Below, piece after piece: positions 6,021 to 24,064 of a DNA stretch of 64,000 nt. The position numbers and the translations under genes are program-made. Source of the DNA: Pseudomonadota bacterium (GTDB taxonomy: Bacteria > Pseudomonadota > Gammaproteobacteria > Xanthomonadales > Ahniellaceae); the NCBI GenBank assembly GCA_022843465.1, contig JALHNO010000013.1:36138-100137 (forward strand), written 5' to 3'. Within the stretch, counting starts at the first letter, position 1. Every line of letters begins with the position of its first letter. The notes below the pieces were generated by a model. That model was not told the origin of the DNA. It made no database searches and saw only the letters and a program-made list of their open reading frames with translations.

Positions 6021-6560
6021 ATGAACGCAATCGCCGATGACAGCAAACTGGCCTGGTTTGCCGTGCTCACCAAGCCGCGCTGCGAGGACGTCGCGGTGCA
6101 GCAGCTGATGCGCCAGGGCTTCGAGTGTCTGCTGCCCAAGGCGCGGCATCAGCGCCGCAGCGCGCGAGGGATGCAGGCGACAATCGAGCCATTGTTTCCG
6201 CGCTATGTGTTCCTGCACGCACGTGCCGATGGCTGGACCCTGGGTCCGGTGCGCTCGACGCGCGGCGTCAGCGGCGTGGTCCGGTTCGGTGGCCAGGCCG
6301 CGCATGTGCCGGCGCGTGTCATCGAGCAGATCCAGTCGCGCATGGGCGAGGACGCCTGCGTACGACTCGACGCGCCGGATCTCGCGCCAGGCGATATGGT
6401 CCGCATCACTGAAGGTCCGCTGGCGGGCATGCGCGCGATTTTTGATTGTGCTTCGGGTTCGGAGCGGGTGCGGCTGTTGATGGAAATGTTGGGCGAACGG
6501 GTAGCGGTCGTGGTGCCACGGTCGCAGTTGGTCACCGGTTTCCAGCAGGCCTGGGCCTGA
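6021..6560 (+). CDS. rfaH: RfaH-type transcription antiterminator (NusG paralogue)
   Basis: A 179-residue specialised NusG. The N-terminal NGN domain is clear (WFAVLTKPRCEDVAVQQL, then LFPRYVFLHA around residues 55-65). The C-terminal part (PGDMVRITEGPLAGMRAIF, then VRLLMEMLGERVAVVVPRSQL) matches the RfaH KOW region, which in E. coli switches between a helical hairpin and a beta barrel. RfaH proteins bind elongating RNA polymerase at ops DNA, suppress pausing and Rho termination, and help translation of long, poorly expressed operons for surface glycans. The match of this gene with an exact ops element at 6784-6796, 223 bp downstream of its stop, makes the neighbouring polysaccharide operon its obvious target. 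A UpxY/LoaP-type NusG paralogue is the alternative class. Confidence 0.92.
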   Translation: MNAIADDSKLAWFAVLTKPRCEDVAVQQLMRQGFECLLPKARHQRRSARGMQATIEPLFPRYVFLHARADGWTLGPVRSTRGVSGVVRFGGQAAHVPARVIEQIQSRMGEDACVRLDAPDLAPGDMVRITEGPLAGMRAIFDCASGSERVRLLMEMLGERVAVVVPRSQLVTGFQQAWA

Positions 6561-6783
6561 TCGGGATCGCCAGGGATCGTGGCGGCGTGCGGGCCTGAGT
6601 CCCGCGTGCGGTGGCAAGGGGGCAAGTGAAACGGGGTGGCTGGTGTCCCGGCATCAGCACTGGAACTACAGCGGTTTCTGGTCTGCGTCCACAAGGGACG
6701 CGTGTTGATTTGCAGCACAGGTGTTGAAAGCAATTTCCCTACAACCTGCAGCGTTCGGCCATAGGGCAAGCCCAGCGCCATTG
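6561..6783 (+). other. Leader region between RfaH-type gene and ops element
   Basis: No gene is seen in this 223-bp stretch. It must contain the end of the rfaH transcript and probably the promoter of the large operon. Two TTGA-containing hexamers (6705-6710, 6724-6729) were inspected but neither has a convincing -10 at 16-18 bp. Just before the ops site is GCAAGCCCAGCGCCATT, which loosely recalls the part of the enterobacterial JUMPstart sequence that precedes ops. Confidence 0.5.
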
Positions 6784-6796
6784 GGCGGTAGCGTGC
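6784..6796 (+). promoter_or_regulatory. ops element (RfaH recruitment site)
   Basis: The 13 bases GGCGGTAGCGTGC match the enterobacterial ops consensus (GGCGGTAG followed by CGTGC) exactly, on the coding strand of the downstream operon. The site lies in the untranslated leader, 35 bp before the first ATG at 6831. In E. coli this element pauses RNA polymerase and exposes a small hairpin in the non-template strand that RfaH reads. The presence of an RfaH-type gene directly upstream strongly supports function. Confidence 0.88.
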
Positions 6797-6830
6797 CTGC
6801 GGTCAGGAATGGGATGCGGATGCGGCGGTC

Positions 6831-7727
6831 ATGATGCAGCGTCTGTTGATACCGCTGCGGGGTATCCTCGCTCATCCGCTTGGCCGCATCTATCCGATCG
6901 CCTGTCTCTGGCGGTTCTTCGCATGGCAGGTGCGCAGCCGCCTGCATGAAAGCCTGGATGTCCCCTTCGTCAACCAGTCGCGCCTGCGGGTATCGCGGGG
7001 CATGACCGGACTGACTGGCAATGTCTATACCGGACTGCACGAGTTCGAGTCGATGGGCTTCCTGCTGCATGGCCTGCGCGGCAATGACCTGTTTGCCGAT
7101 GTCGGCGCCAATGCCGGCAGCTACAGCGTACTCGCCGCCAAGGCGATCGGCTGTCATGTCGTGGCGGTCGAGCCGGTGGATATCGCACTGCGTGCCTTGC
7201 GGGCCAATGTGGTACTCAATGAGATCCACGATCAGGTTGAGATCCACGAGTGTGTGGTGGCCGATCAGGCGGGCAGCGTGCGATTTACGACCGGGTTGGG
7301 CGCCGGCAATCACGTCGCCACCGAAAACGAGTCTGCGGTCGCCAGCAGCGATTTTCCCGTGCGCACCCTCGACAGCATCCTGGCAGGCAGAACGCCGATA
7401 TTGATCAAGCTGGATGTCGAAGGCTATGAATTGAAGGTCTTGCAGGGCGCCGGACACACACTTTCGAGTTCCGTTCTGCAGGCACTGATTGTGGAGATCA
7501 ATGGCAGCGACAAGCGCTATCAGCTGCAGGCCACCGAACTGGTCGATCTGCTCAAGCGCTACGGTTTCAGCGGGCATCACTACAACCCGATACGGCGCTT
7601 GCTGCACGCTGTCGATCCGCTCAGTGTCGACGGCAACGTGATTTTCCTGCGCAACCCCAATCGCATGCACCAGCGCCTCCGTTCCGCGCCGATGTTTGTA
7701 CTCCCCAGCTGGCGCCTGGCGATATGA
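6831..7727 (+). CDS. FkbM-family SAM-dependent methyltransferase
   Basis: A 298-residue protein. SAM-binding motif I is at residues 88-98 (FADVGANAGSY), followed by the acidic post-I loop VAVEPVD. The FkbM-type segment LIKLDVEGYELKVLQGA and the strand LQALIVEING complete the fold. FkbM enzymes O-methylate hydroxyls, often on sugars of surface glycans. It is the first gene after the ops element. Two adjacent ATG codons (6831 and 6834) are possible starts. The family assignment is secure; the acceptor is unknown. Confidence 0.85.
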   Translation: MMQRLLIPLRGILAHPLGRIYPIACLWRFFAWQVRSRLHESLDVPFVNQSRLRVSRGMTGLTGNVYTGLHEFESMGFLLHGLRGNDLFADVGANAGSYSVLAAKAIGCHVVAVEPVDIALRALRANVVLNEIHDQVEIHECVVADQAGSVRFTTGLGAGNHVATENESAVASSDFPVRTLDSILAGRTPILIKLDVEGYELKVLQGAGHTLSSSVLQALIVEINGSDKRYQLQATELVDLLKRYGFSGHHYNPIRRLLHAVDPLSVDGNVIFLRNPNRMHQRLRSAPMFVLPSWRLAI

Positions 7728-8362: not shown

Positions 8363-9655
8363 ATGATGAACTTCAACCCCAACCTTGCCGATGCCAGGAT
8401 TGCCGTGATCGGACTCGGTTATGTCGGGCTGCCACTCGCTGCGGCCTTGTCGGCGCATTTTGCGGTGACCGGATTCGATATCTCCGAGTCACGCATCAGG
8501 GCCTTGCAACAGGGCAAGGATGGCACCGGCGAACTCGACCAGGCCGAACTGGCCGCCTTGCCGCGGGTTCGGCTGAGCTCCGATGAAGCCGATCTCGCTT
8601 CCTGCACCGTCTACATCATCGCCGTGCCGACGCCGGTCAGCAGCGACAAATTGCCCGACCTCGGGCCACTCCGGGCGGCCAGCCAATGCGTGGGCCGCGC
8701 GCTCAAGCGCGGCGACATCGTGATCTACGAATCCACGGTCTACCCGGGCGCTACCGAAGAAGTCTGCGTGCCCGAGTTGGAGCAGAGTTCCGGTCTGAAG
8801 TTCAATGCCGATTTCTACTGCGGCTATTCGCCCGAGCGGATCAATCCCGGTGACCGCACGCGGCGCATTGCCGACATCATCAAGGTGACATCGGGCTCCA
8901 CGCCCGCTGTCGCACGGTTCGTCGATCAGCTGTATCGCCGCATCATCCGCGCCGGCACCCATCTCGCTCCGAGCATCCGGGTGGCCGAGGCCGCCAAGGC
9001 AGTCGAGAACACCCAGCGCGACATCAATATCGCCTTCGCCAACGAACTGGCGATGATGTTCCATCGCATGGGCATCGATACCGATGAAGTGCTCAAGGCC
9101 GCCGAGACCAAGTGGAATTTCATGCCGGTGCGACCCGGTCTGGTCGGCGGCCACTGCATCGGTGTCGATCCCTACTATCTGATCCACAAGGCCGAAGAAG
9201 TCGGCGCCGCGCCCACGCTGATCCGTTCGGCGCGCCTGATCAATGAGCAGATGAGCGCACATATTTTCGCGCGACTCGCCGATGCCATGCAGGTCCGCGG
9301 CATCGCGATGTCCGGCGCGCGCGTGCTGGTGCTCGGACTGAGCTTCAAGGAGAATTGTCCGGATATACGCAATACGCGCATCGTCGAGTTGATCGCAGAA
9401 GCGGGCAGATGCGGAGCGCGCGTCGATGTCTACGATCCCTGGGTCGATGCCGACGAGGCGCGCGAGGAGTACGGAATCGAGTTGCTGAATTCGCTTCCGT
9501 CCGATCCGGTCTACGATGCCATCGTGCTGGCGGTGGCGCATCGCGAGTTCGCGGCCATGGGCGCAGCGGCGATTCGCGCGCTCACGCGCACGCCGTCGGT
9601 GGTCTTTGATGTCAAGGGCCTCTATCCACGCGATCAACTGGACGGTCGTCTGTGA
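8363..9655 (+). CDS. tviB: UDP-N-acetylhexosamine (GalNAc/GlcNAc) 6-dehydrogenase, TviB/WbpO type
   Basis: A 430-residue nucleotide-sugar dehydrogenase that oxidises C6 of a UDP-N-acetylhexosamine to the uronic acid with two NAD+. The Rossmann motif VIGLGYVGLPLA is at residues 15-26. The conserved segments YSPERINPGD, ETKWNFMPVRPGLVGG and the catalytic Cys265 in GGHCIGVDPYYL are all present, then the C-terminal UDP-binding domain (LGLSFKENCPDIRNTR). The start at 8363 (two tandem Met codons) fits the family N-terminus; a 100-codon upstream extension is unrelated and runs through the palindromes. With the C4-epimerase at 24674 it should yield UDP-GalNAcA. Confidence 0.92.
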   Translation: MMNFNPNLADARIAVIGLGYVGLPLAAALSAHFAVTGFDISESRIRALQQGKDGTGELDQAELAALPRVRLSSDEADLASCTVYIIAVPTPVSSDKLPDLGPLRAASQCVGRALKRGDIVIYESTVYPGATEEVCVPELEQSSGLKFNADFYCGYSPERINPGDRTRRIADIIKVTSGSTPAVARFVDQLYRRIIRAGTHLAPSIRVAEAAKAVENTQRDINIAFANELAMMFHRMGIDTDEVLKAAETKWNFMPVRPGLVGGHCIGVDPYYLIHKAEEVGAAPTLIRSARLINEQMSAHIFARLADAMQVRGIAMSGARVLVLGLSFKENCPDIRNTRIVELIAEAGRCGARVDVYDPWVDADEAREEYGIELLNSLPSDPVYDAIVLAVAHREFAAMGAAAIRALTRTPSVVFDVKGLYPRDQLDGRL

Positions 9656-9684
9656 TGTCCATGACCTGCGAGTTGCAGCGCTGA

Positions 9685-11484
9685 ATGTGCGGCATCGTCG
9701 CCCTCTACGCCCACTCTGGCTCGGCTGCGCCGGTCGATCGCGAGGAACTTCGCCGCGTGCGTGATCATATGCAGGCGCGCGGGCCGGATGGGGCAGGTGA
9801 GTGGTACTCGGCAGACGGACGGCTGGGGCTCGGTCATCGACGGCTGGCGATCATCGATACCACCGAGCGTGGCGCGCAGCCGATGCGCAGCGCCGACGGC
9901 AAGCTGGTGATCAGCTTCAATGGCGAGATCTACAACTACCGCGAACTGCGCGCCAAACTTGAAGCCCTGGGCCGCGTGTTTGCGACCGATTCCGATACCG
10001 AAGTGCTGCTGCATCTGTACGCGCAGCAGGGCGTCGAGATGTTCAGGCAACTGCGCGGCATGTTTGCGCTGGCGATCTGGGATGAGGAACGCCGCCAGCT
10101 GGTGCTGGCGCGCGATGCGTTCGGCATCAAGCCCCTGTATTTCGCTGATCGCGCCGGCCTATTTCGCTGCGCCTCCCAGGTCAAGGCACTGCTCCATGCC
10201 GATGTCGATCGCGCGCCCGATTCTGCCGGGCATGCCGGATTCATGATGTGGGGTTCGGTGCCGGAACCGTTCACGCTGTATCGCGGCATCCGTTCGCTGC
10301 CGGCAGGGCACTGGATGCGGGTGGGCGCCCAGGGTCCGAGTCCATCGGTAGCGTTCTGCGATGTGGTGCGGGTCCTGAAGGAAGCCGCCGACCAGCCCAG
10401 CGAGATGGACCGACCGACCGCGATTGCCTGCATCGCTGCCGCCATCCGCGGCACGGTGCGGGCGCACCAGATTGCCGATGTGCCCGTCGGAGTGTTCCTG
10501 TCGGCCGGGATTGATTCGGGCATGATCGCCGACAATGCCGAGGCCAGTGGCGAGCGTCCGTACACGTTGACGCTCGGCTTCGAGGAATACATCGGCAGCG
10601 GCAATGACGAAGTGCCACTGGCGGAAGAAGTCGCCCGCGGGCTCGATGCCTGGCATAGCACCCTGGTTACCCGGCGTCAGGATTTCGAGGACGACCGCGA
10701 GCGTCTGCTGGCGGCGATGGATCAGCCATCCATCGACGGCGTGAACACCTGGTTTGTGGCCCGAGCTGCGGCACGCATGAATTTGAAAGCTGTGCTCTCG
10801 GGTCTGGGCGGTGATGAGCTGTTTGCGTCCTACCCGAGTTTCCGGCAGTTGCCGCGGCTGGTTCGGATGGCGCGGCCGTTTGCCGCAGTACCTGGAATGG
10901 CGCGTCTGATGCGCCGGATGTCGGCCCCCATACTGGGGCGACTGACCTCGCCGAAATTTGCCGGCGTACTGGAGTACGGCGGCTCGCTCGGCAGCGCCTA
11001 TCTGCTGCGCCGCTGCCTGCATGCGCCGTGGGAACTGCCGGGATTGCTTGGACATGAAGTCGCTGCCGCAGGACTGGAACAGTTGCAGACCCTGGCAGCC
11101 CTGCAGCGCACCGTCGAAGGCAATCGCAGCGATCGTCTGGCAGTCTCGGCTCTGGAAATGGGCTGGTACATGCGCAACCAGTTGCTGCGTGATGCCGATT
11201 GGGCGGGCATGGCGCAGTCGCTGGAGATCCGCGTACCATTTGTCGATCTCGACTTGTTGCGCAGTTGCGCGCCGATCTTTGCGCGTCATCCCGATATCAG
11301 CAAGGCGGAGATCGCCCAGGCGGCGGCGCCGCGTATTTCGCGCAAGGTGCTGCAGCGACCCAAGAGCGGGTTCTCGATTCCGGTGCGCGACTGGCTGAGC
11401 GGCGCGAATGCCGGCTCGCGCGGACGTGGACTGCGCAGCTGGGCACGCTATATCCATGGTCGCCATACCGGTGCCCGCGCATGA
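9685..11484 (+). CDS. Glutamine-dependent asparagine synthase-like amidotransferase (first copy)
   Basis: A 599-residue protein with an N-terminal class II glutaminase domain (catalytic Cys2 in MCGIVALY, then RGPDGAGEW and FNGEIYNY) and a C-terminal ATP-pyrophosphatase domain (PVGVFLSAGIDSGMI, then SGLGGDELFASY). In AsnB, aspartate is amidated. In polysaccharide clusters, relatives such as WbpS are thought to amidate uronic acids. The usual SGGLDS motif reads SAGIDS here, a difference from the second copy at 19595. Its stop overlaps the next start (ATGA, 11481-11484). Context with UDP-GalNAcA enzymes favours a uronamide-forming role. Confidence 0.85.
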   Translation: MCGIVALYAHSGSAAPVDREELRRVRDHMQARGPDGAGEWYSADGRLGLGHRRLAIIDTTERGAQPMRSADGKLVISFNGEIYNYRELRAKLEALGRVFATDSDTEVLLHLYAQQGVEMFRQLRGMFALAIWDEERRQLVLARDAFGIKPLYFADRAGLFRCASQVKALLHADVDRAPDSAGHAGFMMWGSVPEPFTLYRGIRSLPAGHWMRVGAQGPSPSVAFCDVVRVLKEAADQPSEMDRPTAIACIAAAIRGTVRAHQIADVPVGVFLSAGIDSGMIADNAEASGERPYTLTLGFEEYIGSGNDEVPLAEEVARGLDAWHSTLVTRRQDFEDDRERLLAAMDQPSIDGVNTWFVARAAARMNLKAVLSGLGGDELFASYPSFRQLPRLVRMARPFAAVPGMARLMRRMSAPILGRLTSPKFAGVLEYGGSLGSAYLLRRCLHAPWELPGLLGHEVAAAGLEQLQTLAALQRTVEGNRSDRLAVSALEMGWYMRNQLLRDADWAGMAQSLEIRVPFVDLDLLRSCAPIFARHPDISKAEIAQAAAPRISRKVLQRPKSGFSIPVRDWLSGANAGSRGRGLRSWARYIHGRHTGARA

Positions 11485-12575
11485 GGGTGCTGCTGCTGAC
11501 CACCGATGCCTATGGCGGCCATGGCGGCATCGCCTTGTACAACCGCGATATCGCCGATGCCCTGGCCGAGATGGCCGAGATCAGCGAAGTGGTGGTGGTG
11601 CCGCGCACCTTGCCCCTGGTCCCCGAAGGCATCCCGTCGAAGGTACGTTTCCATGGTGAGGCCGCTGGTGGAAAATGGCGCTATGTGCGCACTGCCTTGC
11701 GCTGCGCACTGTCGTCGTTTGACCTGGTGATCTGCGGCCATGTCAATCTGCTGCCGCTGGCCGGTGTCGTGCGCGCGAAGCTGCGTTGTCCACTGGTTCT
11801 TATGGTCTACGGCGTTGATGTCTGGACCCGGATGCACCGCTCCACACGCTACTGGTTGCGCCGGGTCCATGCAGTCTGGTCGATCAGCCGGATCACCCGT
11901 GAGCGGATGAATGCCTGGGCGCAGCTGCCGGAGGATCGCTATCAGTTGCTGCCCAATGCGATTCACCTGGATCGTTATGGGGTTCGTCCCAAGTCGCCGG
12001 CGCTGCTGGCACGCTATGGGCTGCAGGGACGCAAGGTGATTCTGACGGTCGCGCGACTGCCCGGCGCCGAGCGCTACAAGGGCGTTGATGAATTGCTCGA
12101 GATTCTGCCGGAGTTGATCGCAGTACATCCGAACCTGAGCTATGTCATTGCGGGCGATGGTGACGATCGCCAGCGACTGACCGCCAAGGCCTACGATCTT
12201 GGACTGGAGCAGCATGTGGTATTCACCGGATTCGTTGCCGAGCACGAGAAGGCCGATCATTATCGCCTGGCCGATGTGTTCGCGATGCCGGGGCGCGGTG
12301 AGGGCTTCGGCTTTGTGTTTCTGGAAGCGCTGGCCTGCGGCGTACCGGCAGTCGGCAGTCTGATCGATGGCAGTCGCGAGGCGCTGCTCGATGGCGCGCT
12401 GGGTGAACTGGTCGATCCACTGGATCGTGCATCAATTCGTGCTGGCATTCTGCGCGCGCTCGACAAGCCCATCGCGGTGCCCGATGGTCTGTCGCACTAC
12501 GCCTGGCCCGGCTTTCACGCGCGTCTGCGGGCGGCGCTAGACTCGGTTCTTCCGCACACGATGGCGAAGGCATGA
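11481..12575 (+). CDS. Glycosyltransferase family 4
   Basis: A 364-residue GT-B glycosyltransferase. The N-terminal glycine-rich loop (TTDAYGGHGGIALYN), the acceptor domain, and the C-terminal donor site (LTVARLPGAERYKGVDELL, VIAGDGDDR, then GRGEGFGFVFLEALACG with the E-x7-E motif) are all visible. It is a retaining enzyme by family. It overlaps the preceding and following genes by 4 bases each (11481-11484 and 12572-12575). Donor and acceptor cannot be named. Confidence 0.9.
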   Translation: MRVLLLTTDAYGGHGGIALYNRDIADALAEMAEISEVVVVPRTLPLVPEGIPSKVRFHGEAAGGKWRYVRTALRCALSSFDLVICGHVNLLPLAGVVRAKLRCPLVLMVYGVDVWTRMHRSTRYWLRRVHAVWSISRITRERMNAWAQLPEDRYQLLPNAIHLDRYGVRPKSPALLARYGLQGRKVILTVARLPGAERYKGVDELLEILPELIAVHPNLSYVIAGDGDDRQRLTAKAYDLGLEQHVVFTGFVAEHEKADHYRLADVFAMPGRGEGFGFVFLEALACGVPAVGSLIDGSREALLDGALGELVDPLDRASIRAGILRALDKPIAVPDGLSHYAWPGFHARLRAALDSVLPHTMAKA

Positions 12576-13573
12576 GTATCGACAACGCCGCATCGACAGC
12601 AAAGACGGCCCTGATCTGTGGCGTCTCCGGTCAGGACGGTGCCTATCTGGCGCAACTGCTGCTCTCCAAGGGCTATCGTGTGGTGGGCACATCGCGTGAC
12701 GCCCAGATCAGCAGCTTCGCCAATCTGGACCGGCTCGGCATTCGCGCGCGCATCGAGGTCGCTTCAATGGCGATCAACGACTTCCGCAGCGTGCTCAATG
12801 TGCTGGCGAAATTTCGTCCCGACGAGATCTACAATCTTGCCGGACAAAGTTCGGTCGGTCTCTCGTTCGATCAGCCGGTCGAAACGCTCGAAAGCATCAG
12901 CGTCGGCACGCTCAATCTGCTCGAAGGCATCCGCTTTCTCGACACCCGAATCAAGCTCTACAACGCCGGTTCGAGCGAGTGCTTCGGCGATACCGGCGAC
13001 ACGCCGGCGGATGAGTGCACGCCGTTCCGACCGCGCAGTCCCTACGCTGTGGCCAAGGCCGCCGCGTTCTGGGAAGTAGCCAACTATCGCGATGCCTATG
13101 GCCTGTTTGCCTGCTCCGGCATCCTGTTCAATCACGAATCGCCGCTGCGCCCGGAACGATTCGTCACCCAGAAGATCGTCCGCGCCGCCTGCCGCATCGC
13201 CGCCGGCAGCGGCGAACGCCTGCAACTCGGCAACCTCGATATCCACCGCGACTGGGGCTGGGCACCGGAATACGTTGATGCGATGCACCGGATGATGCAG
13301 GTCGACAAGGCTGAAGACTTCGTGATCGCGACCGGACACACCCATGCCTTGAAGGACTTCGTCGCCGCCGCATTCGAAGCCGTGGATCTCGACTGGAAAG
13401 CGCATGTCGATGTGAATGCCAATCTGATGCGCCCCACCGACCTGCGCTTCAATCGCGCCAATCCCGAACGTGCCACGAGTAGGCTGGGATGGCGTGCCGG
13501 GAAGGCGATGCGTGAAGTCGTGACAGCCATGGTGCAGGAAATCACCTCTCGCCGAGCAGAGCGCCTGGCGTGA
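12572..13573 (+). CDS. gmd: GDP-mannose 4,6-dehydratase family protein (short form)
   Basis: A 333-residue short-chain dehydrogenase. The N-terminal [15 protein letters not shown] is the Gmd-specific form of the NAD(P)-binding loop, and PDEIYNLAGQSSV, SSECFGDTG, SPYAVAKAAAFW (catalytic Tyr/Lys) and NHESPLRPERFVTQK are Gmd-type motifs. The usual TSE catalytic triplet reads SSE. It is about 35 residues shorter than the classical Gmd encoded at 38707, so two Gmd paralogues occur in one locus. It should form GDP-4-dehydro-6-deoxy-D-mannose, but a related GDP-sugar dehydratase is possible. No dedicated reductase lies next to it; an ABC exporter follows with 4-bp overlap. Confidence 0.85.
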   Translation: MSIDNAASTAKTALICGVSGQDGAYLAQLLLSKGYRVVGTSRDAQISSFANLDRLGIRARIEVASMAINDFRSVLNVLAKFRPDEIYNLAGQSSVGLSFDQPVETLESISVGTLNLLEGIRFLDTRIKLYNAGSSECFGDTGDTPADECTPFRPRSPYAVAKAAAFWEVANYRDAYGLFACSGILFNHESPLRPERFVTQKIVRAACRIAAGSGERLQLGNLDIHRDWGWAPEYVDAMHRMMQVDKAEDFVIATGHTHALKDFVAAAFEAVDLDWKAHVDVNANLMRPTDLRFNRANPERATSRLGWRAGKAMREVVTAMVQEITSRRAERLA

Positions 13574-14421
13574 GCCGAGAAAACACAGAGCAGTACTTCG
13601 GCCACGATCACCTGACCGTGATCGAGCCGGTGAAGGGCTGGCGCATGCTGGACTGGCGCGAGCTTTGGGCGTATCGCCAGTTGCTGTGGGTGCTGACGGC
13701 GCGCGATGTGAAGGTGCGCTACAAGCAGACGGTGCTGGGTGCGGCCTGGGCGGTGTTGCGACCACTGACCACGATGTTGATCTTCAGTGTGGTGTTCGGT
13801 CGGCTGGCGAAGATGCCCTCGGACGGCATTCCGTATCCGATCTTCGTCTATGCCGCATTGCTGCCCTGGACCTTCTTCGCCGCAGCGATCACCAGTTCCG
13901 GGCAGTCCCTGGTGGGCTCCTCGCATCTGGTCAGCAAGGTCTACTTCCCGCGGCTGATCATTCCACTTTCGTCGATTGGTGCCGGATTGGTCGATCTGCT
14001 GGTGTCGTCGGTGATTCTCGTGTTGATGATGTCCTGGTATCAGGTAGGGCTGAGCTGGAATCTGCTGGCGGCACCGCTATTGATTGCGGGTGTCGTGTTC
14101 ACTGCGCTCGGCATTGGGACCCTGCTTTCGGCGCTGACCGTGGCCTACCGGGACTTCACCCATGTCACGCCGTTCATGGTGCAGATCTGGATGTATGTGA
14201 CGCCGGTGATTTTCCCGATCAGTCTGGTGCCGGAGCGTTGGCAGTGGCTGCTGTATCTGAATCCGATGACTGGTATCGTCGAGGGATTCCGCTCCGTGTT
14301 TTTGGGCCGGCCGTTCGATCTGGTCGGACTCGGCATGTCGTTCGCAGTCAGTGTGCTGCTTTTTGTCATCGGCGTTGCCTACTTTGAACGTGTGGAGCGG
14401 CGCTTCGCCGACGTGATCTGA
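13570..14421 (+). CDS. wzm: Polysaccharide ABC exporter permease
   Basis: A 283-residue ABC-2 type permease with six predicted membrane segments. Family landmarks are the N-terminal amphipathic segment WRELWAYRQLLWVLTARDVKVRYKQ (positions about 25-50), LGAAWAVLRPL and LYLNPMTGIVEGFR near the C-terminus. It would form the inner-membrane channel that exports an undecaprenyl-linked glycan together with the ATPase encoded next (1-base overlap at 14421). The GTG start at 13570 overlaps the gmd stop by 4 bases. Confidence 0.93.
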   Translation: MSRENTEQYFGHDHLTVIEPVKGWRMLDWRELWAYRQLLWVLTARDVKVRYKQTVLGAAWAVLRPLTTMLIFSVVFGRLAKMPSDGIPYPIFVYAALLPWTFFAAAITSSGQSLVGSSHLVSKVYFPRLIIPLSSIGAGLVDLLVSSVILVLMMSWYQVGLSWNLLAAPLLIAGVVFTALGIGTLLSALTVAYRDFTHVTPFMVQIWMYVTPVIFPISLVPERWQWLLYLNPMTGIVEGFRSVFLGRPFDLVGLGMSFAVSVLLFVIGVAYFERVERRFADVI

Positions 14422-15764
14422 TGAGCCGCCCGGCGATCAAGGTGGAGGGCGTCTGGAAGGAATACACGGTCGGGGCCGCGCATCCCCGTCACAGCACCTT
14501 TTACGATCTGCTCAGTCATGGCCTGATGGCACCGTTTCGTCGCTTGCGTGGCGCCGGCGTCGACGCGACCAGCGGCGATCGCTTCCAGGCACTGCGTGAT
14601 GTCAGTTTCGAAGTCAGGCCCGGTGAAGTGCTCGGTGTGGTCGGCCGCAATGGCGCCGGCAAGAGCACCCTGTTGAAGGTGCTCAGCCGAATCACCGCGC
14701 CGAGTCGCGGCCGGGTCAGCCTGCGCGGCCGGGTTGCCAGCCTGCTTGAAGTGGGTACCGGATTTCATCCTGAACTCAGCGGGCGCGAGAACATCCATCT
14801 CAATGCCACCATTCTCGGCATGGGCAAGGCCGAGATTGCGCGCAAGTTCGATCAGATCGTCGCGTTCTCGGGCATCGAGCGCTTCCTCGACACGCCGGTA
14901 AAGCGCTATTCCAGTGGCATGTATGTGCGGCTGGCGTTTGCCGTCGCCGCCCATGTCGAGGCCGATATCCTGCTGATCGACGAGGTACTGGCCGTCGGCG
15001 ATGCCGAGTTCCAGAAGCGCTGTCTCGGCATGATGGGTGAAGTCGCGCGCGATGGCCGCACCGTTGTGTTCGTCAGCCACAATCTTACGGCGATGCGCAA
15101 TCTCTGCAGCGAGGGGCTGCTGCTCAGCAATGGCCGGGTGGACGCGTCTGGCAGCATTGATGAGGTGCTCAGGCAGTATGCGTTCAATGCGGCAGGCCAT
15201 ACCGGTGCCGTTGTCGATATCGATGAGGCCTACCCGGAGAAGATTGCGGCCCTGCGCCGGGTTGCGGTGGTGCCGCAGGGCGGGGCAGGTGGTGACTCCC
15301 TGTCGGTGTCGGCGCCGTTCCAGATTTCAACCTGCATCGAGGTGCGTGCCGAGCACGTCGATCTTGGAGTCTTCGTGTCCTGCCTGGACGCCAGTCAGAA
15401 CTGCGTATTCAGTTCGGCCAGCTTCTTCAACGCTAAACTCAATGGCGCCAGATTGACAGCGGGATTGCACGAGTTCCATTGCTCGGTGCCGGCTCATCTT
15501 CTGAACACGGGTGATTACACCCTGGACGTTGTGCTGATCCGCAATCGTTCCGAGATCGTGCTGACAGAATCGGCGGTCGTGTCCTTCCATATTGAGGACG
15601 CGCCCACCGGTATCGACGGCTGGCACTGGCCGATCCAGGGCATCGTGCGTCCGCAGCTGGGCTGGACGAAATCGAAAATCTCGAGCCCTCGCGCGGCATT
15701 CCAGACCGGCGTCACGCCAGTCGCCACTTCATCCACTCCGAAGTCTCCGGGAGCGTCCTCTTGA
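14421..15764 (+). CDS. wzt: Polysaccharide ABC exporter ATPase with C-terminal glycan-binding domain
   Basis: A 447-residue protein. The nucleotide-binding domain (residues 1-250) has Walker A GRNGAGKST at about 75, the signature YSSGMYVRLAF at about 163 and Walker B ADILLIDEVLAVGD at about 180. A C-terminal Wzt_C-type beta domain (about 270-400, ending HWPIQGIVRPQLGW) follows. In O-antigen systems this domain recognises the finished glycan's non-reducing end and gives export specificity, often together with a terminal modification such as methylation. Three methyltransferases in this operon fit that. The tail after 415 is Ser/Pro-rich. Confidence 0.93.
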   Translation: MSRPAIKVEGVWKEYTVGAAHPRHSTFYDLLSHGLMAPFRRLRGAGVDATSGDRFQALRDVSFEVRPGEVLGVVGRNGAGKSTLLKVLSRITAPSRGRVSLRGRVASLLEVGTGFHPELSGRENIHLNATILGMGKAEIARKFDQIVAFSGIERFLDTPVKRYSSGMYVRLAFAVAAHVEADILLIDEVLAVGDAEFQKRCLGMMGEVARDGRTVVFVSHNLTAMRNLCSEGLLLSNGRVDASGSIDEVLRQYAFNAAGHTGAVVDIDEAYPEKIAALRRVAVVPQGGAGGDSLSVSAPFQISTCIEVRAEHVDLGVFVSCLDASQNCVFSSASFFNAKLNGARLTAGLHEFHCSVPAHLLNTGDYTLDVVLIRNRSEIVLTESAVVSFHIEDAPTGIDGWHWPIQGIVRPQLGWTKSKISSPRAAFQTGVTPVATSSTPKSPGASS

Positions 15765-16798
15765 GCAGTGTCGTCATAACCACCATCCAGGCGCCCACCA
15801 ATTCGGTGATTGCCATGCTGGACAAGGCGCAGAGCGCGGGTCTGGACCTGATCGCGATCGGTGACCGCAAGACTCCAGAAGTAGCCTGGCCTGCGGGAAG
15901 CAGCTACTTCAATATCCAGCAGCAACAGGCTTCGGGATTCGAACTGGCTGGCCTGCTGCCAATGAACCACTACGCGCGCAAGAATCTGGGTTATCTGATC
16001 GCGATGGCGGCCGGTGCCGAGGCGATCTTCGACACCGATGATGACAATGCGCCGCTGCCGAGCTGGGGCGCGCGCTCACTGCTCACGCGCGCTCGGCGCT
16101 GTGAGCAGACCGGTTGGATCAATGCCTATCGCTGGTTCAGTGATGCCCATGTCTGGCCGCGTGGGCTCCCGCTCGATCATGCACACCATGCGGCCGCGGC
16201 CGCGCCGCTGGGCGCCATGGCCGAGATTGCCGCGCCGATCCAGCAAGGGCTGGCGGATGGTTCTCCGGATGTGGACGCCGTCTGGCGTCTGTTGATGGAT
16301 CAGGACATCCGGTTCCGCGATGGCGACAGTGTGTTCCTGCCCGAAGGCGCCTGGTGCCCGTTCAATAGCCAAAGCACCTGGTGGTTCCCGGCGGCCTATC
16401 CGCTGATGTATCTGCCGAGCTTTGTCAGCTTCAGAATGACCGACATCTGGCGCAGCTTTGTGGCGCAACGCTGTCTATGGGCGATGGGTCATGGGCTGGT
16501 GTTTCATGGACCGGAGATGTTCCAGGATCGCAATCCGCATAACCTGATGCGGGATTTCGAGCAGGAAGTTCCTGGCTATCTGCACAATGAGAAGATCCGG
16601 CAGACGCTCGAAGCATTGCAGTTGAAGGCCGGACCGGAGGCAGTCGCCGAAAACTGTCGTGCCTGCTACGAAGCACTGATCGCCGCAGAACTTGTGCCCT
16701 CGACGGAACGCTCATTGTTGGTTGCTTGGCTGGATGATTGTCGCTCGGTTGCCACTGGATTGAATGTGGCACCTCCAGCTGCGGGAGGCTTGCAATGA
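15761..16798 (+). CDS. STELLO/DUF288-like putative glycosyltransferase
   Basis: A 345-residue protein whose N-terminal part (VVITTIQAPTNSV, AIGDRKTPEVAW) and central metal-binding type motif DTDDDN (residues 91-96) resemble the DUF288/STELLO group, known mostly from plants where the proteins organise cellulose synthase. Bacterial members occur in surface-glycan loci. Aromatic-rich segments follow (NSQSTWWFPAAYPLMYLPSF), then RMTDIWRSFVAQR and GLVFHGPEMFQDRN. No signal peptide or membrane segment is evident. The start is TTG at 15761 overlapping the wzt stop; the stop overlaps the next ATG. Family assignment is from recall of motifs and should be tested. Confidence 0.7.
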   Translation: MSSVVITTIQAPTNSVIAMLDKAQSAGLDLIAIGDRKTPEVAWPAGSSYFNIQQQQASGFELAGLLPMNHYARKNLGYLIAMAAGAEAIFDTDDDNAPLPSWGARSLLTRARRCEQTGWINAYRWFSDAHVWPRGLPLDHAHHAAAAAPLGAMAEIAAPIQQGLADGSPDVDAVWRLLMDQDIRFRDGDSVFLPEGAWCPFNSQSTWWFPAAYPLMYLPSFVSFRMTDIWRSFVAQRCLWAMGHGLVFHGPEMFQDRNPHNLMRDFEQEVPGYLHNEKIRQTLEALQLKAGPEAVAENCRACYEALIAAELVPSTERSLLVAWLDDCRSVATGLNVAPPAAGGLQ

Positions 16799-17544
16799 AT
16801 GCCATTCTCCAAGAGATTCTGGCGACTGGTGTCACCGTACTTCCTGACGGCGAGCGGGTCCCTATCCACTCTGGCGTCGGGCCTGGAAGTGGGAGCGTGT
16901 TACTTGCGGCTGTCGAAGCGGCAAAGCCAAAGCTGGGCTGTGAAGTTGGTCTGGCATTTGGACTGAGCACTCTGTACATCCTTGATGCGATGCAAGCCCA
17001 CGGAGGCGGACGGCTGATTGGTGTGGATCCGGCTCAGCATGATGCGACTTGGAGGGGCGGTGGGCTGCACAATGTGCAACGTGCAGGGTTCGCGGATTAC
17101 TACGAGTTTCTGGAAGAAACGTCACAACTTGCCCTTCCAAAACTCGCCGGCTGCGGCACCCGAATACAGTTCGGCTTCATCGACGGTTGGCATACCTTCG
17201 ATCACGCACTGGTCGACTTCTTTTTTCTCGACATGATGATGGACGTCGGCGGTGTTGTGGTGCTTGACGATGTGGGTTACCCGGGATTGCAGCGACTGGC
17301 GCACTTCATTGTTAGCAACCGTGATTACAAGCTGCTCGCGCTTGATCGGCGCCCAATCCCGTCTGGCTGGCGAGTCACTGCCAAGTCAGGGGCTCAGCGC
17401 TTGTTGCGTCCCCTCGTGCGCGACAACCATTCGCCAACCATGGAAACGCTCAAGCTGCAGCAGCCGATCAACACGGCGCAGCTGATCGCCCTGCAAAAAC
17501 GTGGCGATGATCGTCGTCGCTTCGATCACTTCGTGCCCTTCTGA
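16795..17544 (+). CDS. Class I SAM-dependent methyltransferase (Methyltransf_24 type)
   Basis: A 249-residue protein with motif I-like CEVGLAFGLSTLYI at about residues 50-63, the acidic loop GVDPAQH, and IQFGFIDGWHTFDHALVDFFFLD, a signature of the class that acts on sugars or small acceptors. The start at 16795 has a good ribosome binding site (GGGAGG at 16782-16787). Base composition is lower in GC than in the flanking genes (33 of 60 bases on the line at 17101), suggesting separate ancestry. Substrate unknown. Confidence 0.82.
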   Translation: MNAILQEILATGVTVLPDGERVPIHSGVGPGSGSVLLAAVEAAKPKLGCEVGLAFGLSTLYILDAMQAHGGGRLIGVDPAQHDATWRGGGLHNVQRAGFADYYEFLEETSQLALPKLAGCGTRIQFGFIDGWHTFDHALVDFFFLDMMMDVGGVVVLDDVGYPGLQRLAHFIVSNRDYKLLALDRRPIPSGWRVTAKSGAQRLLRPLVRDNHSPTMETLKLQQPINTAQLIALQKRGDDRRRFDHFVPF

Positions 17545-17552
17545 GCGCGCGC

Positions 17553-18485
17553 ATGAGCAATCCGCATCCGCTCGTCAGTATCGTGATCCCTAGTTACAAC
17601 CAGGGGCGCTTTATCCGCGAGACCATCGCGTCCTGCCTGAGTCAGGATTACCGGCCGCTCGAAATTCTGGTGCTCGATGGTGCCTCCAAGGACGATACCG
17701 TTGCGGTGCTGAAGTCATTCGATGCAGCTGAACTGCAGTGGTGGAGCGAGCCTGACGGCGGCGTGGTGGATGCGGTCAACAAGGGGCTGGCGCGGGCGCA
17801 GGGTGCCATCCTCACGATCCAGAGTTCGGACGATGTGTTTCTGCCGGGCGCGATAACGGCGATGGTCGCGGCATTGCAGGCTGCACCGGAGGCTGGCCTG
17901 GTCTACGGCGACGTCGAGTTGATCGATGCCGATTCGCAGTTGATCGGCGCTGACGTGCAGGGCGATTTTGACTTCTGTGCCTACCTCGGCCGACTGCAGT
18001 ACATCCCGCAGCCCGGAACCTGCTTCACGCGTGCGGCCTATGCGGAGACCGGCGTCTGGCGGGACACCGTGAGCTACGCGGCCGATGCCGATTTCTGGAT
18101 GCGGATTGCGAGCCGCTTTCCGGTGCTGCATGTGGCGCGTTGCGTTGCACGCTATCGCTACCACGATGAGCAGCGCGATACCCAGCGCGCACGGATCGCC
18201 CGTGACTGGACCCAGGCCGTCAACGATCTGATCGCCAGCAACTTGCTCACGCCGAGACAGCGACGATATGCCCGCATGGGCAATCAGTTGGTCCGTCACC
18301 GCTACGCTGCGCCGCAGAACTGGATGGAGCGCACGCGTGCACTCTATGCGGCGGCATTGGCAAATCCACCGGGTCTCCTCGACGCCCGCTTTCCCAAACG
18401 CGAGCTGCTGCCGGGACGCGATCCGATCTGGCGCCAGTTGTCGCGACTGAAACGCTCGCTGGGCTTCCGGCCGAGAGTCGGATGA
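17553..18485 (+). CDS. Glycosyltransferase family 2
   Basis: A 310-residue GT-A inverting glycosyltransferase. The nucleotide-binding strand VSIVIPSYNQGRFI is at the N-terminus, the acidic metal-binding motif is the variant SSDDVF (about residue 92), and the acceptor region has AADADFWMRIA. The C-terminal third is basic and could contact the membrane. It ends in a 4-base overlap with the next gene. Donor and acceptor unknown. Confidence 0.9.
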   Translation: MSNPHPLVSIVIPSYNQGRFIRETIASCLSQDYRPLEILVLDGASKDDTVAVLKSFDAAELQWWSEPDGGVVDAVNKGLARAQGAILTIQSSDDVFLPGAITAMVAALQAAPEAGLVYGDVELIDADSQLIGADVQGDFDFCAYLGRLQYIPQPGTCFTRAAYAETGVWRDTVSYAADADFWMRIASRFPVLHVARCVARYRYHDEQRDTQRARIARDWTQAVNDLIASNLLTPRQRRYARMGNQLVRHRYAAPQNWMERTRALYAAALANPPGLLDARFPKRELLPGRDPIWRQLSRLKRSLGFRPRVG

Positions 18486-19549
18486 TGTCCGGACTGCAAC
18501 GCGCCCGTGGCCTGCTCGGTGTCGTCGTCAAGGATCTGCCGCGCTATCTGCCAGCCCTCCGACAGCGTTCGCCGCGCTATCTGGCGATCTGCAATCGCGG
18601 CGAGCAGCTGATCGCGGCGCCTGATGGCAGCGGGTACCGCTGCGACTGGCAATGGACTTCGGATCTGCGCGCGCCGCTGCAATTGCCGGTACTCGGGCGC
18701 AGGCTGATGCAACGCGCGCTGGCCGATCATCCGATCCGGCTGAATCCGCAACCGGACACGATGCCAGTAGCGCCCGAAGTAACTTTCATCATCGGGCACC
18801 GCGGCGACAGTCGCCTGCCATATCTGCTGAAGACACTCGAGAGCATCGCCGGCCAGCAGGGCGTCGCGTTCGAGTGCATCGTGGTCGAGCAGGACAGTGT
18901 GCCACGGCTCAGCGGTCGGCTACCTTCCTGGGTTCGCCATCTGCATACACCGCCGCCAGTCGCGAATATGCCGTATTGCCGGTCCTGGGCCTTCAATATC
19001 GGTGCCCGTGAAGCAAGCGGAGCGCTGCTGATCCTGCACGACAACGATCTGCTGGTATCGACCGACTATGCCGCCCGGTCGCTGGAGCGCATGCGGGCAG
19101 GCTTTGACGTGGTCAATCTGAAGCGCTTCGGCTTCTATCTGGGCGAGGCGCACACCCAGGCTGTTTTCGAGCGCGCAGTGTCTCTGACGGATCAGCCGCC
19201 AGAGAGCGTGGTGCAGAACATGCTGGGCGGCGGCAGCATCGCGATCGGGCGTTCGGCTTACCTGCGCATCGGCGGCATGGACGAGGGTTTTGTCGGCTGG
19301 GGTGGCGAAGACAACGAGTTCTGGGAGCGCGCCCAGACCCTGGATCTCTGGCCCTATGGCTGTCTGCCTTTGATTCATCTCTGGCATCCGTCACAGCCCG
19401 GCAAGTATCAGTCCGACAATCCCACGCTGGCGCGCCATCGCGCACGATCTGCAATCGATGCGGTGCGTCGCATCGAAGAACTCTCGGCCTTGCCCTGGGG
19501 CGATCGCAGCGGACCGCTGGGCTACGGCGGGGCAGCGGACAGTGGCTGA
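18482..19549 (+). CDS. GT2/galactosyltransferase-like glycosyltransferase
   Basis: A 355-residue protein. After about 95 residues of unassigned N-terminal sequence comes a GT-A fold (EVTFIIGHRGDSRL), a metal site of the form LHDNDLL at about residue 183, and the GMDEGFVGWGGEDNEFWER segment typical of the galactosyltransferase C-terminal (Glyco_transf_7C) region. The N-terminal domain may bind a partner or membrane. It overlaps the preceding GT2 gene by 4 bases and is followed by a 45-bp gap. Confidence 0.85.
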   Translation: MMSGLQRARGLLGVVVKDLPRYLPALRQRSPRYLAICNRGEQLIAAPDGSGYRCDWQWTSDLRAPLQLPVLGRRLMQRALADHPIRLNPQPDTMPVAPEVTFIIGHRGDSRLPYLLKTLESIAGQQGVAFECIVVEQDSVPRLSGRLPSWVRHLHTPPPVANMPYCRSWAFNIGAREASGALLILHDNDLLVSTDYAARSLERMRAGFDVVNLKRFGFYLGEAHTQAVFERAVSLTDQPPESVVQNMLGGGSIAIGRSAYLRIGGMDEGFVGWGGEDNEFWERAQTLDLWPYGCLPLIHLWHPSQPGKYQSDNPTLARHRARSAIDAVRRIEELSALPWGDRSGPLGYGGAADSG

Positions 19550-19594
19550 GCGGAGACCGCGGACTGTGGCCGAGTCGTCCATATGGGCGCAGCC

Positions 19595-21361
19595 ATGTGC
19601 GGTCTAGTCGGCTGGCTGTCAGCACCTGGAGTGGCAGCAGATCCGAACCTGCTCAGCTCCATGATGGATGCGATCGGCCATCGTGGTCCGGATGACCGCG
19701 GGTCCTACATCGATGACGACGCCGGCATCGCGCTCGGGCATTTGCGCCTGAGCATCATCGACCTCAGCTCGGCGAGCCATCAGCCCATGCGCGATGGCGG
19801 GTCCGGCGTGACGCTTGCCTACAATGGCGAGTTGTACAATTTCCGCCCGCTGCGTGCCGAACTGCAGTCGCTCGGTCATGTGTTCGCCTCGCAGGGCGAT
19901 ACCGAGGTGGTGCTGCGCAGTTATCTGCAATGGGGCATCGACTGCGTGCAGCGCTTTGCCGGCATGTTCGCGCTGGCCCTCTGGGATCCGCGCGGCCAGG
20001 TGCTGCACCTCGCGCGCGATGCAATGGGCATGAAGCCGCTGTATTACGTCGAACAGCCCGGCCGCCTGCTTTTCGCCTCCGAGGTCAAGGCCTTCAAGCG
20101 AGTGCCGGGATTGCATCTGCGCCCCTCGGCTTCGGGTCTGACCCAGTATCTGGAATTCGGCTATGTGTTCGATACCCATGAGACGATCTTCGAGGGCGTA
20201 CGCAAACTGCCACCGGGGTTTCGCGCCGAACTGAGGACGGGCAAGGCGCCCAACCTGGTGCGCTATTTCGATCCGCCTGCGCCCGATCCCGCCGACCGCC
20301 GTGATGAACAGAGCCGCGTCGATGAGTTGCAGGCCGTGCTGTCCGAAGTGACCGAGCAGCACCTGATTGCCGATGTCCCGGTCGGTCTGTTGCTGTCGGG
20401 TGGGCTGGATTCCAGTCTGATTGCTGCGCTGGCCGCGCGCAAATCCTCGGTGCTGACGATCAGCATGGGATTCTCCGACTCCGTCATCGACGAGCGGCCC
20501 CATGCGCGCGCGGTCGCTGACCATATCGGCTCGCGTCACCTCGAAGTGTTGATCACGCCCCAGCAGGTCATGCAGGAAGTCGTCGCGGGCGCCTGGGTGT
20601 TCGACGATCTGTTTGCTGACTGGGGCACGATCACCACGCGCCTGATGTACCGGCGTTGTCGCGAGCAGGGTGTCAAAGTGGTGCTGGTTGGCGAGGGCGC
20701 AGACGAAATTTTTGGTGGTTACGATGTCTTCCGATGCCCCGAGCGCCTTGGACTGTGGCAACTGTTTCGTCTGTACCAGCGCTATTCAGGACGTCGGCAT
20801 GGCAACCTCTTTGGTGCATTCCGCGAGTGTATGGTCAAGTATCAGCAAGCTGGGCAGGGCGATACCTTCCATGCGGTGAGGATGTTTGAGGCGCTTCGTC
20901 AGCTTCCAAACCAGTATGTGATGAAGGTGGACAAGGCGAGCATGGCCGAAAGTATCGAGGCAAGGGCCCCATATCTTGATCGCCGTGTCGCCGAGCTTGC
21001 GTTGCGGACTCCGCGTGAATGGCTGCTCCGTGATGACCAGAACAAATATCTACTGCGCGCACTTGCCAGGCGCGATGGGCTTCTTCCATCGTCCATCAGC
21101 AATCGGACCAAATTCGGTGGTTCGGTTGCCGCAAGTTGGATGGATGAGAACACAAAGTTCCGGGACTTCGCACGCGAGCGTCTCCTTGGTGGCGTCTGGT
21201 GTCGGAAGCTTGGCGTACTGTCTGATATGGAAGCCTATTTTAAGCGTGGGCGGCGCGGTCGTCCGTTCCCGTTCGCGATATCGCTTTATAGCAATCTGGC
21301 CTGGAGACTGCTGCTGCTCGAGTTGTGGTGGGAACATTACGCTGGTGCGGAAACTTCATGA
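19595..21361 (+). CDS. asnB: Asparagine synthase (glutamine-hydrolysing)-like, second copy
   Basis: A 588-residue protein. The start is placed at 19595 because the mature glutaminase needs Cys at position 2 (MCGLVGW); the 4-codon longer version from 19583 would mask it. The glutaminase domain (RGPDDRGSY, YNGELYNF) and synthetase domain (PVGLLLSGGLDSSLIAALA, GEGADEIFGGYDVF) are complete. It belongs to the same broad family as the gene at 9685 but they are clearly different proteins. Base composition falls from about 20650 to the end of the gene, so the 3' half looks recombined. Amidation of uronic acids in the glycan is the contextual hypothesis; plain asparagine synthesis is the alternative. 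Confidence 0.87.
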   Translation: MCGLVGWLSAPGVAADPNLLSSMMDAIGHRGPDDRGSYIDDDAGIALGHLRLSIIDLSSASHQPMRDGGSGVTLAYNGELYNFRPLRAELQSLGHVFASQGDTEVVLRSYLQWGIDCVQRFAGMFALALWDPRGQVLHLARDAMGMKPLYYVEQPGRLLFASEVKAFKRVPGLHLRPSASGLTQYLEFGYVFDTHETIFEGVRKLPPGFRAELRTGKAPNLVRYFDPPAPDPADRRDEQSRVDELQAVLSEVTEQHLIADVPVGLLLSGGLDSSLIAALAARKSSVLTISMGFSDSVIDERPHARAVADHIGSRHLEVLITPQQVMQEVVAGAWVFDDLFADWGTITTRLMYRRCREQGVKVVLVGEGADEIFGGYDVFRCPERLGLWQLFRLYQRYSGRRHGNLFGAFRECMVKYQQAGQGDTFHAVRMFEALRQLPNQYVMKVDKASMAESIEARAPYLDRRVAELALRTPREWLLRDDQNKYLLRALARRDGLLPSSISNRTKFGGSVAASWMDENTKFRDFARERLLGGVWCRKLGVLSDMEAYFKRGRRGRPFPFAISLYSNLAWRLLLLELWWEHYAGAETS

Positions 21362-22314
21362 TTGACGGGTTGGTCAGCACGGTGATCCCGGTTTTCAACC
21401 GCCCCGCGATGCTTCGAGAGGCGGTGGACAGCGTCCTGGCACAGACCTGGCGGCCGATTGAGATCGTCATCGTGGACGACGGTTCCACCGACGCCACGGC
21501 TGTCGTCGCCGAATCGCTACGTGCTGAGAATCCCTCGGTTGTGAAACTCCTCGCGCAAGCCAACGCTGGCCCGGGAGTCGCTCGTCAGCACGGGCTCACG
21601 CACAGCACTGGCGAGTTCGTCCAGTTCCTGGACAGCGATGATCTGCTGCTGCCCAAAAAGTTTTCGCTTCAGATCGCCGGACTGCGTGAGGATACGGCGG
21701 CCGGCATCAGCTATGGAAAGTCGTACGCCAGCACTGGCGGAGTGCGATCCGACAAGCCGGCGCAACGAACCGGGGAGGTATTCCGCACCCTGTTTCCGGC
21801 GCTGCTCCGAGAACCGATCTGGCCGACGATGACACCGCTCTATCGCCGCGCCTTGATCGATCGTATTGGACCGTGGCCCCGCGCGCGCCAGTTGGAAGAC
21901 TGGATCTACGACGCGCAGGCGGCAGAACTGGGTGTGGAGCTGCACTACGTCGACGACTACATTGCAGAGACCAGGGATCACACAGAGGCACGACTCTGCA
22001 GAGAGTGGATGAGCAATCCGGAAGGAATGAAGGAGCGGATCGCTGCCTACTTCGAGGTAATGATTCGCGCGAAGCGGGCTGGGGTTGAACGGGTTCATCC
22101 CGAGTACCAGCGCTTTGCCCGAAGCCTGTTCTGGATGGCGAGAAACGCTGGACGCTATGGATTGGAGTCAGAAGCGGAACGCCTGTTCCTGGCCGCGCGC
22201 GAGGAGACGCTTGCGCCCGGCTGGGACTATCGCTGCTTTGGGATCATGGCGAAGCTGCTTGGTTGGTCGCGTGTCAGCAGGCTGGCAGAGGGAATCAAGG
22301 GGCTGACTCGGTGA
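21358..22314 (+). CDS. Glycosyltransferase family 2
   Basis: A 318-residue GT-A glycosyltransferase starting MIDGLVSTVIPVFNRP, with the nucleotide-binding VIVDDGSTDAT at about residues 38-48 and the DxD-type motif LDSDDLL at about residue 93. A conserved QLEDWIYDAQAAELG segment provides the likely catalytic acid/base. Start 21358 is chosen from the ATGA overlap with asnB and the family N-terminus. It lies in the lower-GC part of the locus. Substrate unknown. Confidence 0.9.
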   Translation: MIDGLVSTVIPVFNRPAMLREAVDSVLAQTWRPIEIVIVDDGSTDATAVVAESLRAENPSVVKLLAQANAGPGVARQHGLTHSTGEFVQFLDSDDLLLPKKFSLQIAGLREDTAAGISYGKSYASTGGVRSDKPAQRTGEVFRTLFPALLREPIWPTMTPLYRRALIDRIGPWPRARQLEDWIYDAQAAELGVELHYVDDYIAETRDHTEARLCREWMSNPEGMKERIAAYFEVMIRAKRAGVERVHPEYQRFARSLFWMARNAGRYGLESEAERLFLAAREETLAPGWDYRCFGIMAKLLGWSRVSRLAEGIKGLTR

Positions 22315-23267: not shown

Positions 23268-24064
23268 AGCCGCCTGTTTTCGACCCAGGCTTCGTCGAAG
23301 AGGTCGCCGCCCTCTACCGCCACGATATGCAGGAAATGTGGGATCCGAAGCTATGCCGGCACATCTGGAATCAGTACCACAATCAACTGGATATCTATCT
23401 GGGATTCGCGTGGGGCTCGCCGATGCGCATACTGGATGTGGGTTGCGCACAAGGAACCTTGGCGCTGCTGTTGGCAGAACGTGGACACAGGGTCACGGCA
23501 GTGGACATTCGACCGCAGTTTCTCGAGTACGCGAAAAGCCGGTACACCCACGGCGACATCCAGTTCCTTGCCGCCAATGTGCTGGAGGATGACCTACCTG
23601 GCGAATATGACCTGATCTTTGCCAACCAGATCATCGAGCATCTCGTTTTCCCGGAACTTCTGCTGACACGGCTGCGTGCGCTCCTGGTCCCGGGAGGCCG
23701 CCTCGTCACGACTACGCCAAATGGTAGCTACATCAAGAACAAGCTTCCTTCCTACGCCGATTTGGGTGATCCCGATGACTGGAAGGATCGACAGTTCACC
23801 GCCGACGGCGACGGACATTTCTTCGCGTATCGCGACGTCGAGCTTCGTCGCATCTATGAGGCCACTGGGTTTTCGAGGATAGAGATTCGCTACTTCGAGA
23901 CGCCGTTCATCAGCGGACACATGAAGGTACGGCATGTGCATGGCTTTGTGCCCGTGGGGGCATTGCGGTTTTTCGACCGTCTCGCCTTGCGTGTACCGGG
24001 CCTGCGTCAGCGGGTATCGCATCAGCTGCTTGTTACGGGCACTCGCAGTGTGGAGCCCGCGTGA
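23264..24064 (+). CDS. Class I SAM-dependent methyltransferase (Methyltransf_23/UbiG-like)
   Basis: A 266-residue protein with motif I LDVGCAQGTLALLLAERG (about residues 57-74), motif post-I VTAVDIRPQFLEYA, motif II DLIFANQIIEHL and motif III LVPGGRLVTTTPNGSY. The N-terminal part contains WNQYHNQLDIYLG, which is not assigned. It is the third methyltransferase in the operon and ends in an overlap with the acyltransferase gene. It may place a terminal or internal methyl group on the glycan; this is inference. Confidence 0.85.
   Translation: MKPPVFDPGFVEEVAALYRHDMQEMWDPKLCRHIWNQYHNQLDIYLGFAWGSPMRILDVGCAQGTLALLLAERGHRVTAVDIRPQFLEYAKSRYTHGDIQFLAANVLEDDLPGEYDLIFANQIIEHLVFPELLLTRLRALLVPGGRLVTTTPNGSYIKNKLPSYADLGDPDDWKDRQFTADGDGHFFAYRDVELRRIYEATGFSRIEIRYFETPFISGHMKVRHVHGFVPVGALRFFDRLALRVPGLRQRVSHQLLVTGTRSVEPA

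Follow-up and report, generated by a model that had tools for sequence, protein, structure and literature searches.

An rfaH-type gene and an adjoining ops site as a probable linked regulatory module of a long polysaccharide operon

Results

Organisation of the locus

Within the window, the 64,000-nucleotide stretch of DNA analysed here, an RfaH-type gene is followed on the same, plus, strand by an exact ops site that begins 223 bp past the stop codon of the ORF (Table 1). This arrangement had been pointed out in a sequence-only reading, together with a same-strand gene run continuing to 38114, and both were found to be real: regulator and site are encoded together, and they precede a long run with polysaccharide gene content. 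The run encodes a UDP-sugar dehydrogenase, an asparagine synthase-like protein, glycosyltransferases, a GDP-mannose dehydratase-like protein, methyltransferases and epimerases, with sugar-nucleotide enzymes also among its genes. An FkbM methyltransferase gene separates ops from the MarR family EPS-associated regulator gene (MarR_EPS) here, while in most relatives of the order ops is followed by MarR_EPS directly. MarR_EPS is a recurrent neighbour of rfaH and ops: it occurs in the leaders of relatives and, on Rhodobacterales plasmids, next to rfaH. In GC profile the locus was not atypical enough to make a case for recent import. A tandem array (5276-5912; 194-bp unit, 3.3 copies, 96% matches) lies in the gap between a Wzy_C gene, which ends at 5282, and rfaH.

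Table 1. Features of the rfaH-ops locus, with positions in the window
Feature	Position	Strand	Basis or remark
RfaH-type NusG paralogue, 179 aa	6021..6560	+	TIGR01955, Pfam NusG, closest PDB match
Leader from rfaH to next gene	6561..6830	+	ops after 223 bp, first ATG 34 bp past ops
Hairpin and ops (JUMPstart-like) model match, degenerate 5' stem	6767..6799	+	model R1, 27.1 bits, E 2e-7
ops GGCGGTAGCGTGC, exact 13-mer	6784..6796	+	sequence match
FkbM-family methyltransferase	6831..7727	+	TIGR01444, 89 bits
MarR family EPS-associated regulator, winged helix	7846..8190	+	TIGR04176, 150.7 bits (cut-off 88)
Polysaccharide run, presumed RfaH target	8366..38114	+	operon membership inferred from strand and spacing
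ABC permease/ATPase, Wzm/Wzt-type transporter	13570-15764	+	in polysaccharide run
Carbamoyltransferase	35278-37029	+	in polysaccharide run
Last gene of polysaccharide run	37026-38114	+	

The ops site is the sole exact match to GGCGGTAGCGTGC within the window. It fits the ops pattern GGCGGTAGCGTG(C) and lies on the sense strand of the long-run leader; with one flanking G on the 5' side and CTG on the 3' side it reads GGGCGGTAGCGTGCCTG, identical to the consensus of relatives. Two copies of the exact 13-mer are present in the 5.18-Mb genome, and the second (contig C9), which precedes rimO, was set aside as chance. Allowing up to one mismatch, near matches were not enriched genome-wide (20 matches vs 48 for a reversed control), and thus the signal of ops is positional. 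No clear Shine-Dalgarno sequence was seen by eye in the leader, and a promoter scan at the locus found no promoter. Between rfaH and ops, at 6684-6702, there is a terminator-like stem (TGCGTCC-ACAAG-GGACGCG) that does not exceed chance expectation; if real, it would part rfaH from the operon.

The RfaH-type protein

The RfaH equivalog model TIGR01955, whose curated cut-off is 144.5 bits, matched the product of the RfaH-type gene with 131.4 bits (E 3e-38). As this falls short of the cut-off, we use the label RfaH-type and do not treat the protein as a certified RfaH; many cis-linked RfaH relatives of the class pass this cut-off. It also matched the Pfam NusG model (NGN domain) with 62.3 bits, and its closest PDB relative was E. 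coli RfaH (E 2e-18). Structure comparison returned the NGN domains of both E. coli RfaH and NusG, which supports an RfaH/NusG NGN domain only. The NCBIfam models for UpxY and LoaP scored 70.9 of 100 and 47.5 of 125 bits, both below cut-off. Since the housekeeping nusG of the same genome is a different gene, located on contig C6, the RfaH-type gene is a paralogue; no third NusG-domain gene was found in this genome.

The residues involved in ops contact and autoinhibition were compared on the basis of their roles in E. coli RfaH (PMC5995543, PMC7593976), in which K10, H20, R23 and R73 contact ops (PMC5995543). In the alignment K10, R23, Q24, T72 and R73 are identical in the window protein, H20 is replaced by Gln and R16 by Val. 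As both replaced residues are important in E. coli, these substitutions count against an RfaH-ops reading; Gln20 together with a T6 ops was found in 9 of 193 rfaH loci. The autoinhibition residues E48, I93, F130 and R138 are all present. The C-terminal domain (CTD) is NusG-like in sequence (LG..VxVP), and AF2 modelled it as a beta-barrel (pLDDT 58-74) from an alignment of 28 sequences that included phage NusG-like proteins; with 13 sequences the pLDDT of the CTD was only about 30-40.

Linkage of rfaH and ops in relatives

Relatives of the order (Lysobacterales) were surveyed in a set of 61 and then in 398 genomes by locating rfaH homologues and inspecting the DNA downstream. In 33/33 scorable EPS-type homologues, spanning six GTDB families (f1, f2, f4, f7, f10 and f11 type 1), a same-strand ops was located 45-245 bp downstream, with 21 sites exact and 12 carrying 1-3 changes. 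The identity of these EPS-type proteins to the window protein is as low as about 34-45%, and their leaders vary in length and are strongly diverged in sequence, yet the place and strand of ops are fixed. Loss of ops from relatives that keep rfaH had been named beforehand as the observation that would speak against the pairing; ops was kept in all 33. At 33/33 homologues, the linkage is the rule in the lineage and no peculiarity of this locus. In family f9, GGCGGCGGCGTCA-type matches ~300 bp downstream of rfaH fall inside the phosphomannomutase coding sequence and were rejected as ops sites.

Across the class, 276 genomes yielded 61 rfaH genes, 20 of which had an exact same-strand 13-mer no more than 3 kb away, where ~0.02 linked cases would be expected by chance from the 77 exact copies found overall (an estimate that takes ~2.8 Mb per genome). 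Of 193 rfaH loci examined, 57 had the 12-mer core of ops no more than 1.2 kb downstream, 3 had it upstream and none had it on the opposite strand near rfaH, while permuted 12-mers gave a mean of 0.017 and a maximum of 1 downstream match. In 17 genomes presumed to be enterobacterial, no ops was found near rfaH, which is what an rfaH acting in trans would predict and agrees with the earlier statement that enterobacterial rfaH usually lies apart from ops.

A winged-helix protein of ~200 aa (SQRHLA..GVALGLANSYLKRC) is encoded between rfaH and ops at loci L042, L044, L045, L048, L050-L052, L068, L115 and L120. Its gene takes this position in many genomes of the class, and in the order MarR_EPS usually comes after ops; the ~200-aa protein is perhaps the counterpart of MarR_EPS.

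In other classes of the phylum, for which the data were drawn from rfaH loci only and are therefore local, ops or an ops-like sequence, (T/G)GCGGTAGC, was found 59-246 bp downstream of rfaH in 7/20 loci, with a hairpin present in most. On two Rhodobacterales plasmids (L371, Marivivens; L374, Sulfitobacter) a hairpin and TGCGGTAGC stand divergent from rfaH and directly before MarR_EPS, and an rfaH-bearing Agrobacterium plasmid (L370) has a hairpin and TGCGGTAGC site before an epimerase gene. Transfer of regulator and site as a unit, which the sequence-only reading had suggested, is hinted at only by the patchy occurrence of the pairing and by these alphaproteobacterial plasmids that carry rfaH with ops-like sites.

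The hairpin and ops element

Alignment of 56 linked sites on ops gave the consensus TGCGG-N7..15-CYGCAG followed by GGCGGTAGCGTGC and CTGA, with ops bases 2-5, 7-9 and 11 invariant. In 49/56 elements, compared with 34% of shuffles, a stem of 5 bp or more ended 0-3 nt 5' of ops, and double changes were seen at 5/5 stem pairs, these covariation counts leaning towards the hairpin since the alignment was selected for stems. In f9 elements the stem is wholly swapped to UUGGG/CCCAA. The stem in the window itself is degenerate, while it is clear and covarying in most relatives. An Rfam search of the leader gave no family above gathering, JUMPstart (RF01707) reaching 18.4 bits on the window, against a gathering score of 35, and at best 27.4 bits on 20 relatives.

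A covariance model of the hairpin and ops element was then used to search 25 genomes of the order with a threshold of 30 bits. It returned 20 matches at or above threshold, 12 of them rfaH-linked (f1, f4, f7 and f11) and 8 in f9. In the f1, f4, f7 and f11 genomes every such match was the linked site, and there was no second element that strong; the model missed two linked sites, and the linked site of the window's own genome, with 27.1 bits, lies under the threshold. In f9, rfaH adjoins phosphomannomutase or glmS and has no ops beside it, and, judged by translation, most genes following the 8 f9 elements encode UDP-glucose dehydrogenase or have other polysaccharide functions. Class-wide, 34 matches of at least 30 bits were obtained, of which 19 were rfaH-linked and 2 were in genomes without RfaH. 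Protein and site thus stay paired whether they are neighbours or apart, which speaks for RfaH as the factor that the site serves.

Base 6 of ops and residue 20 of RfaH

In E. coli, T6 of ops flips into a pocket of RfaH formed by H20, R23, Q24 and R73 (PMC5995543). All 64 of 64 T6 elements pair with His, Asn, Gln or Glu at RfaH residue 20. In family f11, linked ops sites have C6 in 7/7 loci, and the RfaH protein of each of these loci has Cys20 (L015, L017, L018, L020, L021, L022 and L072); the locus of an eighth Cys20 protein ends at the contig end. Among the 193 loci, Cys20 is confined to f11. The seven C6/Cys20 loci form a single clade (99/96) and thus represent one coincident change and no replicated evidence, so that co-evolution of ops and RfaH specificity at base 6 and residue 20 is possible. 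Five f11 genomes carry a second RfaH with His20 and without ops nearby, which suggests insulation between the paralogues. Ops-like A6 elements (GGCGGAAGCGTG) were found at loci L350, L355 and L367, where RfaH residue 20 is Asn, Asn or Ser and residue 23 is Ala, Asn or Ser; two of these lie at most 70 bp after rfaH and one ~800 bp before the rfaH end.

Discussion

The recurrence of the gene-signal pairing in many related and distant bacteria points to a conserved linked module, and we consider it highly probable, judging from sequence comparison, that the locus combines RfaH and ops in a linked regulatory module for the long polysaccharide operon, with RfaH loading at ops. We infer pausing, recruitment, NusG exclusion and coupling from E. 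coli RfaH. By that analogy, transcription running through or just past rfaH would enter the leader, and RNA polymerase would pause at ops, where the N-terminal domain of RfaH would read the exposed non-template bases of the G4-G5-T6-A7 loop. RfaH would then remain on the polymerase and exclude NusG, rendering it processive over the ~31 kb run, and the polymerase would probably be coupled to ribosomes, provided that the CTD acts like that of E. coli RfaH. The long operon would in this way be transcribed without Rho-dependent polarity, and the position of rfaH just upstream of ops would put the protein where its site is. The sequence-only reading had suggested that, should the ops-RfaH contact hold outside enterobacteria, specificity was kept over a long distance; the pairing is conserved far outside enterobacteria, and the ops contacts are kept only in part, given the replacement of H20 and R16.

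A wider reading is that rfaH, hairpin and ops make up a self-contained, ops-dependent module that occurs on plasmids as well as in two or more classes of Pseudomonadota, with base 6 and residue 20 co-evolving to give naturally insulated pairs, namely Cys20 with C6 in one family, mostly in addition to a His20 RfaH. We hold this tentatively, at somewhat less than an even chance. If T6/C6 with His20/Cys20 are true specificity pairs, they would be natural variants of DNA-hairpin recognition and useful for orthogonal processivity switches.

Alternatively, the RfaH of the locus could work mainly in trans, with the linked ops as one target of several, as in E. coli. Elements away from rfaH in the f9 genomes of the order and in several genomes of the class are in line with such a role; however, the genome that contains the window lacks a second strong element, its other exact ops being the one before rimO, and in four families of the order (f1, f4, f7 and f11) all matches of at least 30 bits are the linked site, so we regard a mainly trans-acting role as improbable here.

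It is a shade less probable again that the 13-mer is conserved as a consensus pause of RNA polymerase or as a leader RNA signal, and that the neighbouring rfaH acts without ops, for example co-transcriptionally in cis. The ops sequence does fit the consensus pause, its central bases being dispensable for pausing (PMC5995543), ops-independence has been reported for cis-adjacent monomorphic RfaH homologues (PMC13015549), and one AF2 run gave a beta-barrel CTD for the window protein. However, C3, G4, G5, A7 and G8, which are needed by RfaH and not for RNA polymerase pausing, are invariant in 56/56 elements. Moreover, the strong element is almost confined to RfaH-bearing genomes, including those with rfaH elsewhere, and base 6 of ops and its RfaH pocket residue change together in one clade. 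That ops is a chance match or an unrelated repeat resembling it has negligible probability: although near matches lack genome-wide enrichment and the second exact copy looks accidental, chance is refuted by the fixed place and strand of ops beside rfaH across families and dozens of species, with 57 occurrences against the permuted mean of 0.017.

RfaH, ops and JUMPstart are already known, as are rfaH genes near envelope operons (PMC7593976); what appears new, again from sequence, is ops beside rfaH outside enterobacteria, of which no report was found in the literature searched, where few subscription journals were covered. The linked RfaH-ops module resembles the E. coli system (PMC5995543, PMC7819879) in its ops sequence, protein family and long polysaccharide operon target, and in keeping the main ops-contacting and pocket residues K10, R23, Q24 and R73. 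In contrast to E. coli, where rfaH acts in trans, the gene here adjoins its site, and its product has H20 and R16 replaced, scores below the equivalog cut-off and has a NusG-like CTD sequence. The JUMPstart stem-loop has been noted in gammaproteobacteria (PMC2864571), and JUMPstart (RF01707) shares with the present elements a hairpin followed directly by GGGCGGTAGCGTG in polysaccharide leaders of gammaproteobacteria; most elements here, however, lack the 5' CAGYGC box and score below gathering.

In UpxY, LoaP, TaA and the Shewanella CL7 RfaH (PMC7593976), too, the gene of a NusG paralogue lies next to or within the polysaccharide or metabolite operon that the paralogue controls, the presence of ops being what distinguishes the present loci. 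A 2026 preprint described operon-adjacent monomorphic RfaH homologues that behaved as ops-independent in E. coli (PMC13015549); they resemble our locus in that rfaH adjoins a long LPS/EPS operon, whereas at our locus the ops beside the gene is strictly conserved and the protein retains the autoinhibition residues. The recruitment modes of operon-encoded NusG paralogues were stated to be unknown (PMC7593976), and a conserved ops beside rfaH at dozens of unrelated loci makes ops-dependent targeting of such paralogues directly testable.

Finally, on a 96-kb IMG/VR contig labelled as viral (L192:2498-3905), GGCGGTAGCGTGT lies 61 bp after a gene for an RfaH-like protein, close to where the next ORF begins, and a cold-shock gene is found downstream. 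This is possibly a phage-borne rfaH-ops pair.
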